Below, in pieces: positions 8,621 through 61,175 of a DNA stretch of 64,000 nucleotides (positions are counted from its first letter, which is position 1; each line of letters opens with the position of its first letter). The notes under the pieces are model-generated. The model searched no databases, was not told the DNA's origin, and was given only the letters and a program-made list of their open reading frames with translations. Location: the NCBI RefSeq assembly GCF_001403635.1, contig NZ_LN879468.1, positions 248,001 to 312,000 of the forward strand. The letters are read 5' to 3'. A program made the position numbers and the translations under genes. This stretch comes from Clostridium massiliamazoniense (GTDB lineage Bacteria; Bacillota; Clostridia; Clostridiales; Clostridiaceae).

Positions 8621-8626
8621 TATTTT

Positions 8627-8655
8627 TTATCCGATAGCTAGAGGCTGTAATATTC
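8627..8655 (+). repeat. dispersed structured repeat, 5' fragment
   Basis: TTATCCGATAGCTAG followed by AGGCTGTAATATTC matches the 5' arm of the full repeats at 48222 and 54738. Only this arm is present. It sits between manZ and manO. Confidence 0.7.
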
Positions 8656-10111: not shown

Positions 10112-10333
10112 GTTATTTTCTCCTTAATTAATTCGAGTTTTCTAAATTTAATTACTATAATAAATATACAAATAGAAATAGTTAGTATGCATTATTTTTG
10201 AACATATTTTGCAAATACTTTTAAATAAAGTAGTGAATACTTGATGATAGTAAAAATAAATATTAAAATTAATTTGTAAATTTACTTTGATAAATTCATA
10301 AGAAAAATACAAATTGATAATTAAAGATTATTT

Positions 10334-10463
10334 TGTCTGGTGATTAGTGTCTGTAATATCAAAGTTTCTTATAAAATAGGGATAAATAGACATAGGTCAC
10401 AAGATAAAGAATACTAAAATCCAACTAGAGGTAAAACTCTATATGAATTAAGCTTTAATTTAT
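10334..10463 (+). repeat. dispersed structured repeat, full copy
   Basis: The long hairpin pairs 10340-10354 (GTGATTAGTGTCTGT) with 10386-10400 (ATAGACATAGGTCAC). The small hairpin is TAGAG, GTAAAA, CTCTA at 10426-10441. The tail TGAATTAAGC follows. It lies upstream of the FliB-like gene. Confidence 0.85.
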
Positions 10464-10538: not shown

Positions 10539-11693
10539 ATGAAAGTAAGAGTACCAAATTATTTTAATGAATTTAAGTGTATAGCTTCAGAGTGCGAGGA
10601 TACATGTTGTGCTGGATGGAGTATTGTTATTGATGAGGAAAGTAATAATCGTTATAAAAAGGTAAATGGTGACTTTGGAGAAATTTTAAGAAGTAAAATA
10701 GTTAAGGATGAAGATGGAAATAATATTTTTCTTCTAAATAAAGGAAATTGTTCTTTTTTAAATGAGAAAAAACTTTGTGATATATATGCTGAGCTTGGAG
10801 AAGATTATCTTTGTTATACATGTAAGCAATATCCAAGATATACTGAGGAATTCTTGGATTTAAGAGAAGTAGGAATTTCTTTATCTTGCCCAGAAGCTGC
10901 AAGAATAATTTTAAGGTCAAATAAAAAAGTTATTTTTGAATTAAGTGAAAATGAGGAAGAAGCTGATTTAGAGAGTGACATTAGTGAAGATGTTCTTTCT
11001 GATTTTTTAGGGTGTAGAGATATTGTTCTTAATATTATAGAACGTAAAGAACTAGATTTAGAAAGTAAATGTGCCATAGCACTTAAATTTGTTAAGGAAA
11101 TTCAAAATAAAATAGATTTAGGTGATATGGATGAAATAAAGGATGTCATAGAAGAATATAAGGAAGAAAATTTATTAAAGGAAATTATAAAAGAATTAGT
11201 TGAATATAAAGGAAAGAAAAGCCTTAAGTATAATAATATATATGGATATTTTAATGTGTATAAGGATATAAAGCATATTAATTCTAATGACCCATTAGGT
11301 CTAGATAATGCATTAAAGTATTTTAAGGATAAGGAAGAACTTTATTTTACTAAATCAAAAGAATTCAATGAATATTATAAGGATAACTTATATAAATTCG
11401 AGAATATATTAAATTACTTTATATTTAGATACTTTATGAAAGCTATTTTTGATTATGATATGTCAGCAAAAATGAAACTAGCAATAATTAGTACTTTAAT
11501 GATTAGGGAATTAGTATTAGTAAAATGGATAGAAGAGGGACAATTAACTGAAGAGGATATGGTTAATATAAGTCATATGTATTCTAAGGATATTGAACAT
11601 TCAGAAGAAAATATAGAAGATTTACAAGAAATTTTTGAAACTAAAGATATATTTGAAGTTGATGAAATAATAACTGTATTAATGAATAACTAA
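10539..11693 (+). CDS. FliB-family flagellin lysine-N-methylase-like protein
   Basis: The N-terminus VRVPNYFNEFKC followed by CEDTCCAGWS and later NCSFLNEKKLC..LCYTCKQYPR is the cysteine pattern of the FliB / YkgJ-like family, which likely binds a metal cluster. Salmonella FliB methylates lysines of flagellin. Here 384 residues with an acidic, helical C-terminal half match clostridial homologues. No flagellar gene is in the window, so the substrate may be another protein. The start is uncertain because no good ribosome binding site precedes ATG 10539. A full copy of the dispersed repeat lies in the leader. Confidence 0.8.
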   Translation: MKVRVPNYFNEFKCIASECEDTCCAGWSIVIDEESNNRYKKVNGDFGEILRSKIVKDEDGNNIFLLNKGNCSFLNEKKLCDIYAELGEDYLCYTCKQYPRYTEEFLDLREVGISLSCPEAARIILRSNKKVIFELSENEEEADLESDISEDVLSDFLGCRDIVLNIIERKELDLESKCAIALKFVKEIQNKIDLGDMDEIKDVIEEYKEENLLKEIIKELVEYKGKKSLKYNNIYGYFNVYKDIKHINSNDPLGLDNALKYFKDKEELYFTKSKEFNEYYKDNLYKFENILNYFIFRYFMKAIFDYDMSAKMKLAIISTLMIRELVLVKWIEEGQLTEEDMVNISHMYSKDIEHSEENIEDLQEIFETKDIFEVDEIITVLMNN

Positions 11694-11806: not shown

Positions 11807-11924
11807 TTAGAATTAATTATAATAATATACATAAGAAGTAATTAAAATAAACTAAGACTTAATTTAGATAAAGATTAGAAAAACATAGTTAATTATAAAT
11901 AATAAATAGTAGGAGGAAGAAAAT

Positions 11925-33945: not shown

Positions 33946-34065
33946 TTATAAACGTAGATTTAATTCAGGTAGAGTTTTGGAGTCATGTGAATGGGGAGTG
34001 ATTATTGTCTATAAGTATGAGGCTGTTTATCTCCCATTTATAGAACATAGGAGTTTTAATATAAT
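33946..34065 (-). repeat. dispersed structured repeat, inverted and 5'-truncated
   Basis: Read on the minus strand it has the inner loop, the arm AAACAGCCTC, the small hairpin region ACTCCAAAACTCTACC and the tail GAATTAAATCTACGTTTATA. The 5' arm is missing. It lies between nagE and the glycerate kinase gene. Confidence 0.8.
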
Positions 34066-34125
34066 TTGGATGAGGAATCTTCTTTTGTTAATATTATAGT
34101 AGAGATATAAAGTGAGGTGATTAAA

Positions 34126-35261: not shown

Positions 35262-35335
35262 TGTCTATCACATAATTAGTGTCTGTTATATTTTAATTTT
35301 CTATAAGCTTAGGGGAAACAAGTACAGGATTCTAT
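35262..35335 (+). repeat. degenerate copy of the dispersed repeat
   Basis: ATTAGTGTCTGTTATATT matches the 5' arm of the copies at 10334 and 40261, with a weak match of the 3' side (AACAAGTACAGG). The tail is absent. Confidence 0.5.
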
Positions 35336-37652: not shown

Positions 37653-37702
37653 CTGTCGTTAAAGAGTAAGCAAAGTTATTTCTCTCTAATGACAGTTTTT
37701 TT
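37653..37702 (+). terminator. terminator of the DUF975 gene
   Basis: CTGTCGTTAAAGAG pairs with CTCTCTAATGACAG (14 positions, one mismatch), followed by TTTTTTTAT. Confidence 0.9.
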
Positions 37703-37820
37703 ATATGATGATTAATGTTTATAATACTAAAGTTTCTATGAGCTAGAGATAAACAAAGCTATATTCTTATAAAATTCAGTTAAAGTGAAAACTCTATTTG
37801 AATTAAGTCTTAGTTTATTT
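37703..37820 (+). repeat. dispersed structured repeat, full copy
   Basis: The arm TGTTTAT pairs with ATAAACA, replacing the GC-richer arms of other copies while keeping the pairing. The tail TGAATTAAGTCTTAGTTTAT is intact. It sits between the DUF975 terminator and the DUF2207 gene. Confidence 0.8.
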
Positions 37821-40256: not shown

Positions 40257-40260
40257 TTTA

Positions 40261-40390
40261 CCTGATCACTAGTGTCTGTAATACGAAAGCCTTTAGAAGC
40301 TTAAGATAAATAGGCACAGGTCACTAGATAAGGATTACTAAAGTTGAGCTAGAATTAAAACTCATCTGAATTAAGTCTCAGTTTATAAAA
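40261..40390 (+). repeat. dispersed structured repeat, full copy
   Basis: The 5' arm CACTAGTGTCTGT pairs with ATAGGCACAGG; an inner AAGC/GCTT stem and the tail CTGAATTAAGTCTCAGTTTA are present. It starts four bases after the DUF2207 stop and ends before the lemA ribosome binding site, so it lies inside the presumed transcript. Confidence 0.85.
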
Positions 40391-44282: not shown

Positions 44283-44332
44283 AAGGATTATCTTTAAAAT
44301 GGAGTTTACTCCACTTTAAGATAATCCTTTTT
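44283..44332. terminator. two-part terminator hairpin near crr
   Basis: Outer stem AAGGATTATCTTTAAA with TTTAAGATAATCCTT and inner TGGAGT/ACTCCA, flanked by A and T runs, so it can work in both directions. It resembles 20243-20296 and 59107-59154. Confidence 0.8.
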
Positions 44333-44363
44333 AGTTTATCTGACTGAATTAAGTCTATGTTTA
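44333..44363 (+). repeat. dispersed repeat, head joined to tail
   Basis: GTTTATCTGA (repeat start) is joined directly to CTGAATTAAGTCTATGTTTA (repeat tail); all inner sequence is missing. It overlaps the crr stop codon. Confidence 0.65.
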
Positions 44364-44837
44364 TTTTTTATAAGTTAGTATATCAGTTTCTCCAGCTTTA
44401 GCATCAATTCCAACTATAGGAGATATTGATTTTACAGAATCAACATTAGTTATTAAAACAGGAGTTACTAATGAAATACCTTTACTTTCAATAAATTCTC
44501 TATTTAATTTAACTATTGGAGTACCAGCTTTTACTTTTTGACCTTCCTCTGCAAGGCGTTCAAAGCCTTCGCCATTTAGGGTAACTGTGTCAAGGCCAAT
44601 ATGAATTAGCAATTCAACACCATTATCTGTTGTAATAGAAAAAGCATGATTAGTCTTGAATATTAAAGTTAAAGTTCCATCACAAGGGGCTACTACTATA
44701 TTACCAGTAGAATCTATTGCAAGCCCATCTCCAGCCATTTTTTCAGCGAAAACAGGATCATTTACTTTTGATAAGTCTATAGTTTTTCCTTCTATTGGGG
44801 AAACTAATTTTAAATCTTTTTTTAAAAATCCAAACAT
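44361..44837 (-). CDS. crr: PTS glucose-type EIIA
   Basis: A free-standing EIIA-Glc of 158 residues. H64 and H79 are the two active-site histidines; H79 in LLIHIGLDTV accepts phosphate from HPr. SPIEGKTIDLSKVNDPVFA and GTPIVKLNREF are family motifs. It can phosphorylate EIIB of the ptsG and nagE permeases, both of which lack an EIIA domain. Its leader contains a RAT-like sequence and terminator on the minus strand, and a hairpin (44846-44870) that can cover its ribosome binding site. It is divergent from the antiterminator gene. Confidence 0.93.
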   Translation of the reverse strand: MFGFLKKDLKLVSPIEGKTIDLSKVNDPVFAEKMAGDGLAIDSTGNIVVAPCDGTLTLIFKTNHAFSITTDNGVELLIHIGLDTVTLNGEGFERLAEEGQKVKAGTPIVKLNREFIESKGISLVTPVLITNVDSVKSISPIVGIDAKAGETDILTYKK

Positions 44838-48221: not shown

Positions 48222-48356
48222 TGTTTATCTAATAGCTAGAGGCTGTAATACTCCTATTCCCTATAAGTAGGAAATAAACAGCCTCACGCTTCTAGATAAG
48301 GAGCCTAAGCATTGAGAGGGAGTCAAAACTCCACCTGAATTAAGTCTACGTTTATA
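48222..48356 (+). repeat. dispersed structured repeat, full reference copy
   Basis: GAGGCTGT (48239-48246) pairs with ACAGCCTC (48278-48285), TCCTA with TAGGA inside, TATCTA with TAGATA outside. The small hairpin GGAGT, CAAA, ACTCC is at 48319-48332, and the tail CTGAATTAAGTCTACGTTTA follows. It lies between ptsG and the ATPase leader. Confidence 0.9.
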
Positions 48357-48489: not shown

Positions 48490-48735
48490 TATAATCTCTT
48501 TGCACTGCATATAAATCTACAGTACAAACTGATCAGGCCGTAAATTTTGTTGAAATTTATGGAGCCGGGCCTTTGGGCAACAGGGAATTATACCTGTGGG
48601 ACAGTATATTGTTCTATGGGTATTTTTTTATACTTTTAGAGCAATAGCTGAAACAAGATGAAGAATGCATTGCCATAGAGTGATCAAAAAAAGCTATTTC
48701 TATGATATATAGAAAGCAAATTGGAGGTATACTTT
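48490..48735 (+). promoter_or_regulatory. structured leader of the P-type ATPase gene, riboswitch candidate
   Basis: After a TATAAT box (48490-48495) the leader is far richer in G and C than its surroundings. Possible helices: CAGT/ACTG (48520-48531), AGGCC/GGCCT (48535-48572) enclosing TAAATTT/AAATTTA, and ACAGG/CCTGT (48580-48597). The last competes with CTGT/ACAG (48594-48604), and a run of seven T follows at 48623. Alternative pairing before a T-run suggests a transcriptional switch. I cannot assign it to a known riboswitch class; a metal-ion sensor is the first guess from the gene it precedes. Confidence 0.5.
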
Positions 48736-51273
48736 ATGACAATTAAAGAACAAAAAAATGAGAAATTTGGATTAACAACAAAAGAAGCAGAAGAAAGACA
48801 AAAGATTTATGGGAAAAATAAGTTGATTGAGGAAAGAAAAGAAAGTTTTTTTAGGAAAATAATAGATGTTTTAAAAGAACCTATGTTTTTATTACTAATA
48901 GGTGCAGCTATTATTTACTTTGTTCTTGGGGAACCTAGAGATGGTTTTATAATGCTCATATTTGTTGTTGGAATTATCGCCATTGATGTTATTCAAGAAT
49001 GGAAAACTGACAAAACATTAAAGGCTTTAAAAAACTTATCTGAACCTCAAGTTACGGTAATTAGAGACAAAAGAGAACAAGTAATAAATAGTGAAGATTT
49101 AGTTCCTGGGGATATTATGATAATTTCAGAAGGAGATAGAATAGCTGCTGATGGTAAAGTAATAAAGTGCAGCGATTTAGCTGTTAATGAATCATTATTA
49201 ACAGGAGAATCAGAGGTTGTTTGGAAAACTACTTATTTCAGAGGTGGTAGTAAGGACTATTGGAAAAGAAATTGTTGTTATGCTGGAAGTGTAGTAACAC
49301 AGGGAGCAGGAGCAATATTAGTAGATAAAATAGGTAGTGAAACTGAATATGGAAAAATAGGAGCTAGTATAATTGAAGCACCAGAAATTAAAACTCCAAT
49401 GGAAAGGGAAACTAGAAAAATAGTTAAGGTTTGTACAATAATTGCATTAGTTCTTTTCTTCTTGGTATGTGTTATAACTTATATTAATATGCCTACCTAT
49501 GATTTTAATGAGAGAATTATAAGTAGTATTTTATCTGGTATAACATTAGCAATGGCAATGATCCCAGAAGAGTTTCCTGTTATATTAACAGTATTTTTAT
49601 CCATGGGAGCCTTTAGACTAGCTAAGAAAAATTCTTTAGTTAGAAAGTTACCATCAATTGAAACCTTAGGAGCTGTATCTGTACTTTGTGTTGATAAGAC
49701 AGGAACAATAACCATGAATAAAATGGACATAAATGAGATTTGGACATTTAAGAATAAAAAAGAAATACTTATAGAAACTATGGGACTTGCTTGTGAGTAT
49801 GAACCTTATGACCCTATGGAACAGGGAATGCTTCGTTATTGTAAAAAAGAAGGTTTTCCTGAGAAAAAAATTTTTAATGGAAAACTTTTAAAAGAATATC
49901 CTTTTACTAGTGAAAGTAAAATAATGGGACATCTTTGGGAAAGAAATGGTGAGGAAGTAATTGTATCAAAAGGTTCACCAGAAAAGATTATTAGTATAAG
50001 TAATTTAGATGATAATGAAAAAAAGGTTATAGAAGAAGAAATTTATAAAATGTCATCTAAGGGTTTAAGAGTCATAGCCATAGGGAAAAAAGTTCTTAAA
50101 GAAAAAGAATTCCCAAATTCTTTAGAAGAAATTAAGTTAGATTTTATTGGACTTGTTGGACTTTTAGATCCTCCAAGAGAAGGAATTAAAGAGGATATTG
50201 AAAGTTGTGTAAGGGCAGGAGTAAAGGTTGTTATGATTACAGGGGATAATGGAGTAACAGCTAGTTCAATAGGAAGAAAAATTGGTATGAAAAATACTGG
50301 CGAAGTAATAACTGGTAATGATTTAGATAAAATGACAGACAGTGAACTTAGGGAAAAGGTGAAAAATGTTAGTATTTTTTCTAGAGTACTTCCAAAGCAA
50401 AAAATGCGTATAGTACAAGCTTTTAGAGATAATGGAGATATTGTTGCAATGACAGGTGATGGTGTTAATGATGTAGTAGCATTAAAATATGCAGATATAG
50501 GAATTGCTATGGGAGAAAGAGGCTCTGATGTATGTAGAGAAGCTGCTGATTTAATATTATTAGATGATAACTTTTCAACTATAGTAGACACCATAAGCGA
50601 CGGTAGAAGAATATATGATAATATTAAAAAGGCAATGGGATATATTTTCACAATTCATATTCCTATAGCTTGTGCTTCATTACTTGCACCTTTGCTTGGT
50701 ATTGGAGGAGCAATGATTTTCTTATTACCACTTCATGTGGTTTTATTAGAGATTTTAATAGACCCAACCTGTTCAGTGGTTTTAGAAAGACAACCAGCAG
50801 AGGATGATATAATGGAAAGGTTACCTAGAAATCCTAAGGAGGGTATAATAAATAGAAAGCTCCTAGTTAAAAGCGTAATTCAAGGAATTGTCTTATTCAT
50901 AGCTTCCTTTGGAGCATATTATGTATCATTGAAAATCAATTCAAATTCTGCAGAAGTATCTAGGTCAATAGGATTGGCTATAATAATGTTATCAAATTTA
51001 TTGCTAGTTCAAGTAAATAGCTCACAAAATGATTTTGTTTATCATTCTATTAAGAAATTAAGAAAAGACCCTATTATGTGGTTAATATCTTTGGGAACTA
51101 TTATTGGAATAGCTATAATTTTATATAGTCCATTAGCTGGAATATTAGGACTTGCAGCACTTTCAATGAAACAGCTAATTATAGTTGTTCTTATATCTTT
51201 TGTATCAATTATGTGGTACGAGGTTGTTAAATTAATAAATAAGTTGAGATTTAAGGAAAGTAAAGCATCATAA
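48736..51273 (+). CDS. P-type cation-transporting ATPase
   Basis: An 845-residue P2-type ATPase. Motifs: TGES (156-159) in the actuator domain, DKTGT with phosphorylated D320, and MTGDGVNDVVALKYADIGIAMG-type hinge (first 20 seen). The M4 ion-site motif is PEEFP (277-281), which differs from PEGLP of SERCA-type Ca2+ pumps and from PEMLP of MgtA, so the ion is uncertain; Ca2+ or Mn2+ are candidates. The cytosolic loop after TGES has an unusual stretch (WKTTYFRGGSKDYWKRNCCY). TTG 48721 is in frame, but TTGGAGGT supports ATG 48736. Confidence 0.88.
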   Translation: MTIKEQKNEKFGLTTKEAEERQKIYGKNKLIEERKESFFRKIIDVLKEPMFLLLIGAAIIYFVLGEPRDGFIMLIFVVGIIAIDVIQEWKTDKTLKALKNLSEPQVTVIRDKREQVINSEDLVPGDIMIISEGDRIAADGKVIKCSDLAVNESLLTGESEVVWKTTYFRGGSKDYWKRNCCYAGSVVTQGAGAILVDKIGSETEYGKIGASIIEAPEIKTPMERETRKIVKVCTIIALVLFFLVCVITYINMPTYDFNERIISSILSGITLAMAMIPEEFPVILTVFLSMGAFRLAKKNSLVRKLPSIETLGAVSVLCVDKTGTITMNKMDINEIWTFKNKKEILIETMGLACEYEPYDPMEQGMLRYCKKEGFPEKKIFNGKLLKEYPFTSESKIMGHLWERNGEEVIVSKGSPEKIISISNLDDNEKKVIEEEIYKMSSKGLRVIAIGKKVLKEKEFPNSLEEIKLDFIGLVGLLDPPREGIKEDIESCVRAGVKVVMITGDNGVTASSIGRKIGMKNTGEVITGNDLDKMTDSELREKVKNVSIFSRVLPKQKMRIVQAFRDNGDIVAMTGDGVNDVVALKYADIGIAMGERGSDVCREAADLILLDDNFSTIVDTISDGRRIYDNIKKAMGYIFTIHIPIACASLLAPLLGIGGAMIFLLPLHVVLLEILIDPTCSVVLERQPAEDDIMERLPRNPKEGIINRKLLVKSVIQGIVLFIASFGAYYVSLKINSNSAEVSRSIGLAIIMLSNLLLVQVNSSQNDFVYHSIKKLRKDPIMWLISLGTIIGIAIILYSPLAGILGLAALSMKQLIIVVLISFVSIMWYEVVKLINKLRFKESKAS

Positions 51274-51280
51274 ATATTCT

Positions 51281-51340
51281 AACTGAATTAAGTCTCAGTT
51301 TGTCTGATGACTAGTGTTTATAATATTACAAGCTTCTATA
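51281..51340 (+). repeat. dispersed repeat, tail followed directly by head
   Basis: ACTGAATTAAGTCTCAGTTT (tail) runs straight into TTTGTCTGATGACTAGTG (head), the order expected at a junction of two tandem copies. Hairpin arms are incomplete. Confidence 0.7.
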
Positions 51341-51382
51341 AGTGCAATGATTATAGCTTATGGCTTTAGTTATTGCACTTAA
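51339..51382 (+). terminator. hairpin after the ATPase gene
   Basis: AAGTGCAAT pairs with ATTGCACTT around a 25-base loop, followed by AAGTTTGT. A second hairpin with TTTTTTTT tail (AGTTAAG/CTTAACT region, 51450-51488) lies just before the pentapeptide gene. Confidence 0.55.
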
Positions 51383-53192: not shown

Positions 53193-53262
53193 TTTATCTC
53201 ATAACCTAGTGTTTGTAATATTTCAATGACCTATAAGACTAAGATAAAGAAACATAGGTTAA
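53193..53262 (+). repeat. dispersed structured repeat, 5' hairpin only
   Basis: AACCTA and TGTTT pair with AAACA and TAGGTT around the usual loop. The 3' hairpin and tail are absent. It abuts the stop codon of the helicase gene. Confidence 0.7.
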
Positions 53263-54375
53263 TTATTGAATATTAGCTTTTCTTTCATTTATAGTAAATC
53301 CAATTTTTTCTTCTATATTTCTTAAAATCTTTTCATCTTTAGGAGCTACAAACATACAAGTATATCCTTCTTCACCAGCACGACCAGTTCTTCCTATACG
53401 GTGAATATATATTTCAGCACTTTCAGCAATATCATAGTTGTATATATGAGTTACTCCTGTTACATCAAGTCCTCTAGCTGCAACGTCAGTAGCAATTAAA
53501 TATTGAATATCAGCATTTCTAAAAGATTTTATTATTCTTTCTCTCTTATTTTGAGGTACATCACTATGTATTTTTGCACAGTTGAAACCTTTTTGATGTA
53601 AAGCAATTTCTAAAACATCAGCTCTTCTTTTAGTCCTACAGAAGATTATAGCCATGAAAGGATTATCTTCCTTCAAAACAGTGCAAAGGGTATCTTGTTT
53701 CCATCTATCACTTGAAAATACTACTTCTTGTTTAATTTTATCAACTGTAGGTGTTTCATCTTTAATATCAACAAATACAGGATCGTTCATATATCTATAA
53801 GCTAATTTTTTTACTTGTGAGTCCATTGTTGCAGAGAAACAAAGTGTTTGACGTTTCTTAGGAACTGCTTTCATTATTTCATCTATTTCATTTTTAAAAC
53901 CCATTAAAAGCATTTGGTCAGCTTCATCTATAACAAGTGCCTTTAGATTTTTTAAATTTATAGAGCCTCTTTTTATATGGTCTATTAATCTACCAGGTGT
54001 GGCAATTATTATGTGGATATTGTTCTTTAATTTTTTTAGTTGTGAACCAATATCTTTTCCACCGTAAGCAGCTAGTATATTAAGTTCATCATTATAATTA
54101 AGTTTATTGGCTTCTTCAGTTATTTGAATAGCAAGTTCTCTAGTAGGAGCTATAATCAAAAGCTGAGTATTGCTATTTTTTGAGTTTATGTTTTGTATAA
54201 GAGGAATTAAAAAGGCCAAAGTTTTACCGGTACCTGTTTTAGCTTCACCTATAAAATCCTTTCCAGATAATATGTAGGGAATGGCTTCTTCTTGAATTGC
54301 TGTTGGAGTTTTTATACCATGTTTATTTAATAGAGAAATTAAGTTTTTATTTATATTTAAATCACTAAAATTCAT
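53263..54375 (-). CDS. DEAD-box RNA helicase, short form
   Basis: A 370-residue DEAD-box helicase with all core motifs: Q motif (FSDLNINKNL..TPTAIQEEAIP), motif I AKTGTGKT, Ia PTRELA, Ib TPGR, II DEAD, III SAT, IV IIFCRTK, V ATDVAARGLD and VI HRIGRTGRAG. It unwinds RNA duplexes, for example in ribosome assembly or cold adaptation. CshA/DeaD proteins usually carry a C-terminal RNA-binding extension of 50-150 residues; here the chain ends about 15 residues after the core, right at a repeat copy, so loss of the extension is possible. Confidence 0.93.
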   Translation of the reverse strand: MNFSDLNINKNLISLLNKHGIKTPTAIQEEAIPYILSGKDFIGEAKTGTGKTLAFLIPLIQNINSKNSNTQLLIIAPTRELAIQITEEANKLNYNDELNILAAYGGKDIGSQLKKLKNNIHIIIATPGRLIDHIKRGSINLKNLKALVIDEADQMLLMGFKNEIDEIMKAVPKKRQTLCFSATMDSQVKKLAYRYMNDPVFVDIKDETPTVDKIKQEVVFSSDRWKQDTLCTVLKEDNPFMAIIFCRTKRRADVLEIALHQKGFNCAKIHSDVPQNKRERIIKSFRNADIQYLIATDVAARGLDVTGVTHIYNYDIAESAEIYIHRIGRTGRAGEEGYTCMFVAPKDEKILRNIEEKIGFTINERKANIQ

Positions 54376-54737: not shown

Positions 54738-54868
54738 TTTTTATCTGATAGCTAGAGGCTGTAATACTCTTACTTTTATAAATAGGAGATAAACAGATTC
54801 ACGTTTCTAGATACCGACCACTAAGCATTCAGATGGAATCAAAATTCCATCATTAAGTCTACATTTAT
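54738..54868 (+). repeat. dispersed structured repeat, full copy
   Basis: Head TATCTGATAGCTAGAGGCTG; 3' arm ACAGATTC; small hairpin GATGGAAT, CAAA, ATTCCATC (8 bp perfect, 54832-54851) and tail ATTAAGTCTACATTTATT. It is close to the copy at 48222. It lies before the deacetylase gene. Confidence 0.9.
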
Positions 54869-60962: not shown

Positions 60963-61062
60963 TCAGATAAACAGCCACAGGTCTATAGATAACTTCCACT
61001 AAAATTAAATTAGAACTAAAGCTCAGCTAGAACTAAAATTCTATTTGAATTAAGTCTTAGTT
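60963..61062 (+). repeat. dispersed structured repeat, 5'-truncated
   Basis: It has the arm GATAAACAGCC, the small hairpin TAGAACTAAAATTCTA and the tail TTGAATTAAGTCTTAGTTTA. TTAGAACTAAA and CTAGAACTAAA form an internal duplication. Its left end lies in the 5' end of the patB-like gene. Confidence 0.85.
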
Positions 61063-61175
61063 TATTCTTATAGTTTCTATTTTAACATTTAAATGCGTTT
61101 ATATTAAAAGAAAAAAATGTTATTATTATAACAAAGAGATAAATAATCGAAATATGTTGAAAAGGGGAGTGCAAA

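Follow-up and report, generated by a model that had tools for sequence, protein, structure and literature searches.

The repeat described here is a structured intergenic element of ~125 to 165 nt that occurs in several copies in a 64,000-nt stretch of the Clostridium massiliamazoniense genome (assembly GCF_001403635.1, contig NZ_LN879468.1, positions 248,001 to 312,000; hereafter the window, with positions counted from its first letter). Its closest likely relative among described systems is bcr1, likely a member of the same family, as judged from the published description of bcr1 and not from its sequence. In the excerpted texts from which we cite throughout, bcr1 (the group A repeats of the Bacillus cereus group) measures 147 to 167 nt (PMC2267715, Table 3) and is intergenic, present in high copy and similar to a miniature inverted-repeat transposable element (MITE), with a TTTAT motif tied to its mobility (PMC6542083, PMC3446304). 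The 24 copies of our family from Bacilli resemble it, as they span 126 to 165 nt, with 15 of them at 150 to 165 nt, and carry TTTAT at the end in 22 cases and at the start in 17. Whereas bcr1 is described as confined to the B. cereus group, the present family extends to Clostridia. Okstad 2004, the original account of bcr1, reportedly presented it as MITE-like.

Intergenic structured repeats are also known from Enterococcus faecalis (Efa-1, 163 nt, a pair of adjacent stem-loops; PMC2267715), Clostridium perfringens (Clop-1, 93 nt) and C. tetani (Clot-1, 74 nt; PMC2267715, Tables 3 and 4). Compared by description only, they share these two properties with our element, and Clop-1 and Clot-1 could be its relatives. 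Transposons of the IS200/IS605 type combine a short T-rich target, no target duplication and folded ends (PMC6006769, PMC4227781). PATEs (palindrome-associated transposable elements) lack inverted termini and target duplication, have palindromes near their ends and are too short for a transposase; they show core deletions, and they have inserted despite broken IS200-type enzymes (PMC3119063).

The element at this locus resembles the PATEs of Haloquadratum in that it has neither inverted termini nor target duplication, its hairpins reach both ends and it leaves no room for a transposase; two mini-copies in the window resemble the core deletions described for PATEs (PMC3119063). It differs from them in that its whole length covaries as two long hairpins, and in that PATEs share end palindromes with IS605-type transposons, whereas no such parent was found for it at the loci searched below. 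Insertion 3' of a fixed short target (TTTAT in 36 of 39 copies, and at empty sites) is a property shared with IS200/IS605, but the element is too short for the tnpA or tnpB of these transposons and of IStrons, and its 3' end is unlike that of group A IStrons, which end TCAG. REPs measure 21 to 65 nt and carry a guide tetranucleotide, for example GTAG (PMC6006769); like our element, REPs and REPINs are high-copy intergenic palindromes, and they are moved by a Y1 enzyme (RAYT). The sequence-only reading of the window had left room for a known Rfam family; no copy was matched at the gathering score when Rfam 15 was compared with the window, where only a NiCo riboswitch scored, and a comparison with 15 loci at E up to 1 gave three microRNA-family matches far below their cut-offs. 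In the open-licence literature, as far as its excerpted text extends, we found no description of this repeat family in Clostridium.

Insertion 3' of TTTAT and a fold of two hairpins

The element inserts 3' of TTTAT without target duplication and brings its own 3' end. We compared four joined-flank queries with 12 related genomes and obtained contiguous empty sites for three of the loci; for the fourth (L048; L- and G-labels denote loci and genomes of this analysis), no contiguous match was present among the matches listed. At L041, the filled site consists of TTTAT, the element with a TTGAT end and the right flank, whereas at the empty site L187 TTTAT is directly joined to the right flank. Comparison of L039 with the empty sites L185 and L186 agrees with this, with two substitutions beside the junction, as does that of L052 with the empty site L188, though the site letters themselves have changed there. 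The L052 site is filled in G321 and empty in nine relatives by contiguous match coordinates, of which the L188 sequence was inspected, and L192 holds an independent insertion ~25 nt away, at a neighbouring TTTAT. Comparison of the empty and filled sites delimits the element: it starts after TTTAT and runs to its own TTTAT or TTGAT, with no duplication. The mobility proposed in the sequence-only reading is therefore shown by natural empty sites, three of the four queried sites being empty in at least one relative.

The same boundaries are seen in an alignment of 39 copies (five from the window and 34 from relatives; hereafter A6), made with MAFFT without structure and leaving out three reverse-strand overlaps among 35 model hits, as well as L066. 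In these copies, which were picked by a model that itself contains the end and site letters, the left site is TTTAT in 36 and the right end is TTTAT in 28, TTGAT in 10 and TTAAC in one. As had been suggested earlier, clear terminal inverted repeats are lacking: over the outermost 10 letters, each end agrees with the other's complement at 3.1 positions on average, compared with 3.0 after shuffling, and the matches rise to 4.5 when the TTTAT site is included. In tandem arrays, neighbouring copies have a single TTTAT in common, as would follow if each copy inserted at the 3' TTTAT of the one before it; an example is a set of three head-to-tail copies with a 128-nt period (G425:C67:98125-98515 and L054). 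In G252, one gene (L081 1435-2801), which we take to be yifB-like, is interrupted by two copies, each bordered on either side by TTTAT, which reads ATAAA along the gene.

Two further features lie beside these insertions. At L081, the piece upstream of the interruption shares the frame of a RAYT-like (Y1) open reading frame. At L039, ~60 nt of the left flank, ending at the TTTAT site, form a second dispersed palindromic repeat with dozens of matches in G303, G319 and G347, among others; the corresponding locus of G303, G313 and G323 does not contain it.

The element folds into hairpin I (~80 nt, with the left TTTAT included), followed by hairpin II and a short tail. In the reference copy (48229..48355, + strand; 129.9 bits with R1, a covariance model from the five full window copies, and 97.9 bits with R2, a broader one from A6, both of which include it), the TTTAT at 48224..48228 (+) lies to the left and, judging by the empty sites in relatives, is the target and not part of the element. 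On the same strand, structure counts from both alignments place the long stem of hairpin I at 48223..48301, where the TTTAT site pairs with an internal GATAAG, and the core of hairpin II, GGAGT CAAA ACTCC, at 48319..48332; a tail pattern search places the conserved tail with its GTTTAT end at 48336..48355.

These two adjacent hairpins are kept through compensatory change. In an alignment of the five full window copies, 14 of 37 pairs were altered on both sides, 78.5% of cells were paired compared with 35 to 43% with slid partners, and the covariation score was not reached in 500 shuffles; as the stem was derived by inspecting the same sequences, this test alone is not independent. In A6, 27 of 45 pairs showed change on both sides with pairing kept, 192 cells were changed on both sides compared with 62.4 (sd 8.0) in shuffles, and pairing reached 88.7% compared with 33 to 48% when slid. 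The relatives in A6 were found by a model already carrying the window structure, which favours pairing, but two-sided change is still far above the controls. RNAalifold predicted 26 pairs on A6, with two-sided change in 20, and the base of hairpin II alternates between AGT/ACT (19 of 39) and ACG/TGT (12 of 39). The arms quoted in the sequence-only reading do pair, both by eye and by computation, and its claim of compensatory stem changes gains strong covariation on 39 copies, with the qualification that the paired changes fall mainly between lineages.

Relatives in Clostridia and Bacilli

Relatives with the same fold and different sequences are present in many Clostridia and Bacilli, at up to ~100 places per genome. 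The search of Clostridium relatives that had been proposed with the first description of the repeats gave R1 matches in 84 of 204 Clostridiaceae genomes at E 0.1, a cut at which ~20 of the 204 could match by chance; the best match reached E <=1e-5 in 66. At least 16 R1 candidates were found in each of 20 genomes, and among the matches listed every one spans the whole model. At E 0.01, where 2 to 3 genomes per class could be chance, R2 matched 28 of 250 Bacilli and 28 of 291 Clostridia genomes, eight of the latter also belonging to the Clostridiaceae set, and on nine unrelated loci of ~8 kb it gave no match at E 0.1. An exact tail pattern run over GTDB genomes gave 12 single matches, among them Anaeromonas L001, also matched by R2 (E 1.2e-5); three tail matches in viral contigs were judged coincidental by eye. 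MprF identity to the closest relatives among those searched is 57 to 58%.

With at most one mismatch allowed, there are 97 occurrences of the 5' head motif in G252 and 67 in G461, compared with three and two for the reversed pattern. Near-identical copies at different places in G461 and in G457/G456 indicate recent activity. The loop of hairpin I is enlarged in the inspected Bacilli copies, and extended forms reach ~330 nt: most of 20 forms chosen for length (199 to 332 nt) have extra stem-loops, placed in the loop of hairpin I, in the stretch separating the two hairpins or at both positions. The extended forms of G461 (L145-L158) come in discrete sizes (199-200, 220, 231, 249-251 and 316-332 nt); their stem-loop modules recur and could represent cargo or additional RNA domains. 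L162 (G252:C1:836010-836290) has a tandem run of TTACATTGTGACCCTTGAGG-like units in the inter-hairpin region. BLAST of a window copy against plasmids and phages gave no match. The Bacilli copies matched plasmids only in Pseudalkalibacillus and Peribacillus records, with none for L125 or for the Clostridium copy L062, and L123 gave no phage match.

These relatives may unite scattered species-specific repeats into one family that is recognisable mainly by structure, and the analysis provides a covariance model for annotating it, together with defined ends and a defined target.

How the element may move, and other readings

On balance, we lean toward reading the repeat as a non-autonomous mobile element, the Clostridium branch of a family that extends across Clostridia and Bacilli, moved in the manner of PATEs by a trans-acting enzyme. 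The T-rich pentanucleotide target, the lack of duplication and the folded ends point to a mechanism of the IS200/IS605 or PATE type. An enzyme supplied in trans would recognise the folded single strand and cut it after the left TTTAT and after the terminal TTTAT or TTGAT on the right, and the strand would then be moved as IS200/IS605 transposases move their own substrates and PATEs. The pairing partner of the left TTTAT is an internal ATAAG (20 of 39 copies) or ATAAC (12 of 39), with at least four of five pairs formed in 35 of 39, G-U included, and an overlapping internal AGT or ACG pairs with the right-end ACT (19 of 39) or TGT (12 of 39), so that both ends compete for one internal strand. 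This internal ATAAG/ATAAC may therefore be a guide shared by the left site and, overlapping, the right-end letters, and the fold would be kept by selection for mobility at source copies.

Several observations weigh against this reading. In some members the candidate guide is ATTCG, ATTGG or ATCCG, with the site unchanged as TTTAT, and the hairpins far exceed the 20 to 25 nt found at IS200/IS605 ends. Y1_Tnp is without a match in 16 of the 84 element-bearing Clostridiaceae genomes, including eight of 41 with at least 12 copies, which raises the question of what moves elements in bacteria with many copies but no Y1 transposase match; loss of Y1 after the element had spread is a possible explanation of such genomes. 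Presence of Y1_Tnp is independent of that of the element (68 of 84 element-bearing compared with 91 of 120 element-free genomes, p 0.49), and RAYT-like proteins occur in 46 of 84 genomes with it and 56 of 120 without (p 0.32), with p 0.035 only at a 12-copy cut. These tests take in all 84 genomes at E 0.1 and count up to 16 copies, and because the genomes are related the p-values are rough. Element copies lie beside only two of 30 Y1 loci in the 10 genomes searched, which, with the 38 of 84 element-bearing genomes that lack RAYT-like proteins, also sets the element apart from REPs. No parent transposon with the ends of the element was seen among these 30 loci, and no autonomous element with the family ends among the head and tail pattern matches listed for G252 and G461 (for G461, 53 of its 67 heads), whose spans of ~130 to 330 nt were taken by eye.

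The orientation of the copies also argues against an IS200/IS605 mode. With replication arms inferred from 20 GC-skew samples per genome, 26 of 97 copies in G252 are co-oriented with the G-rich strand, a strong bias opposite to that of a lagging-strand rule, and 25 of 53 among the matches listed in G461, showing no bias, while 11 of the 13 places in the window are co-oriented with the positive skew; these differences leave no consistent lagging-strand rule. Furthermore, the L039 site, which holds a copy in G304, is occupied in G295 by an extended form of ~200 nt (L265); this could reflect either a common insertion that has changed internally or a second use of the site.

A more tentative view, to which we give a minority weight, would place the repeats in a structured mobile class spanning Bacillota that includes bcr1 as a local branch. 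Its elements would be moved by an enzyme other than the known Y1 transposases, and one internal strand would pair by turns with the left target and the right end and so choose both cleavage sites.

It is unlikely that the copies instead act in place as structured RNA (in processing, stability or regulation of neighbours), with the fold selected in each copy. Substitution rates bear on this from both directions. Across 18 G457/G456 copies, stems carry eight to ten times fewer substitutions than loops (0.0048 compared with 0.0388 for all, 0.0030 compared with 0.0297 for rare variants); this set comprises 18 of 20 loci, among which L209 and L210 have common flanks and probably represent a single insertion, as do L211 to L213. 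By contrast, in 20 G461 copies stems and loops change alike (0.0142 and 0.0143) without one recurrent site, or at 0.0142 and 0.0238 with that site kept, and the two sets disagree on in-place selection. The maintained structure claimed in the sequence-only reading thus holds as a fold kept between lineages, while for resident copies these sets conflict. A compensated pair in L177 (G461) and a G-U pair at columns 10-78, retained in 36 of the 39 A6 copies, favour the in-place reading, and bcr copies are present in transcripts at 40 to 51% in two B. cereus strains (PMC3446304). However, once the two consensus G-U pairs are set aside, G-T cells (63) are as numerous as A-C cells (61), showing no RNA strand preference, and the empty sites at three of four queried loci also speak against resident function.

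We likewise give little credence to the possibility that the element is a guide-RNA unit for a trans-acting TnpB-like nuclease, with an RNA ending at the right boundary, the flank as guide and TTTAT as the recognised motif. In TnpB systems, the motif lies 5' of the target site and a structured RNA end adjoins the guide. The geometry here fits, as TTTAT is 5' of the empty site and a structured right end abuts the flank; covariation over the whole length goes beyond the need of short terminal hairpins, and the extended forms carry additional stem-loops. On the other side, no Rfam RNA matched the copies, G-T and A-C cells are equally frequent, and the element carries mobility ends of its own.

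Site-specific recombination between TTTAT motifs, suggested for the bcr repeats of B. cereus (PMC6542083), is also improbable here: TTTAT starts 36 and ends 28 of the 39 copies and arrays share a single TTTAT, but 10 of the 39 end in TTGAT and the empty site of one such copy is TTTAT. A classical MITE mobilised by a DDE transposase and flanked by a duplicated 5-bp TTTAT would account for the high copy number, small size, flanking 5-mers and two insertions inside one G252 gene, but is very improbable given the lack of inverted termini and of duplication at the TTGAT-ending insertion, and is contradicted by the empty sites. Of the MITE, REP-like element or mobile RNA originally considered, a structured mobile repeat stands and the classical MITE does not.

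Copies and neighbouring features in the window

The tail TGAATTAAGTCTNNGTTTAT, allowing at most three mismatches, occurs nine times in the window compared with 0.31 expected and a maximum of two in 100 shuffles. We count five full copies, one degraded inverted copy, two mini-copies without either hairpin and several fragments. Nearly all are intergenic, with a coding overlap of 0 bases at 10 of 13 places and of 1, 4 and 28 bases at the other three (48 genes counted, covering 80% of the window), and 11 of the 13 lie on the + strand.

The dispersed full copies first proposed are all real, with R1 matches from 10330, 37698, 40255, 48222 and 54738; as these copies built R1, their E-values are by construction. 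Besides the reference copy, they lie, all on the + strand, at 10332..10463 (site TTTGT), 37700..37818 (with a ~12-nt deletion in or just after hairpin I, seen in the alignment), 40257..40386 (site TTTAC, immediately 3' of a stop codon) and 54740..54868. Outside the model-building set, R1 matched 61002-61065 (E 8.5e-7), 44285-44364 (E 0.0043) and, inverted, 33948-34067 (E 0.011); the last two are weak, as the antisense match of the 48222 copy itself reaches E 0.0029 in the same list. The first belongs to a partial copy (60963..61065, +) that retains the 3' portion and in which the region of hairpin II is duplicated. The inverted copy reported near 33946 is seen at 33948..34076 (-), with a degraded 5' part and weak scores (R1 E 0.011, R2 E 0.11).

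The tail pattern search located both mini-copies, one with the TTTAT site, CTGA and the tail (44335..44364, +) and one in which TTTATCT is fused to the tail (11847..11872, -); the latter had been overlooked in the earlier list, whose named copies are all in the sequence. It also located a place at which the tail of one copy shares TTTGT with the head of a second, diverged copy (51273..51345, +). Three 5' fragments on the + strand were recognised by eye, at 8626..8655 (absent from the R1 list) and, diverged, at 35262..35328 (E 0.96) and 53193..53288 (E 0.95). The fragments reported at 8627, 35262, 51281 and 53193 are visible by eye, but apart from the unlisted 8627 their R1 scores (E 0.58 to 0.96) are no better than chance.

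The NiCo riboswitch (48519-48606, +, 72.4 bits) lies a short way downstream of the reference copy and is itself followed by a P-type ATPase gene (48721-51273). A homologue of FliB (flagellin lysine-N-methylase) is encoded immediately 3' of another copy, at 10539-11693 (+).
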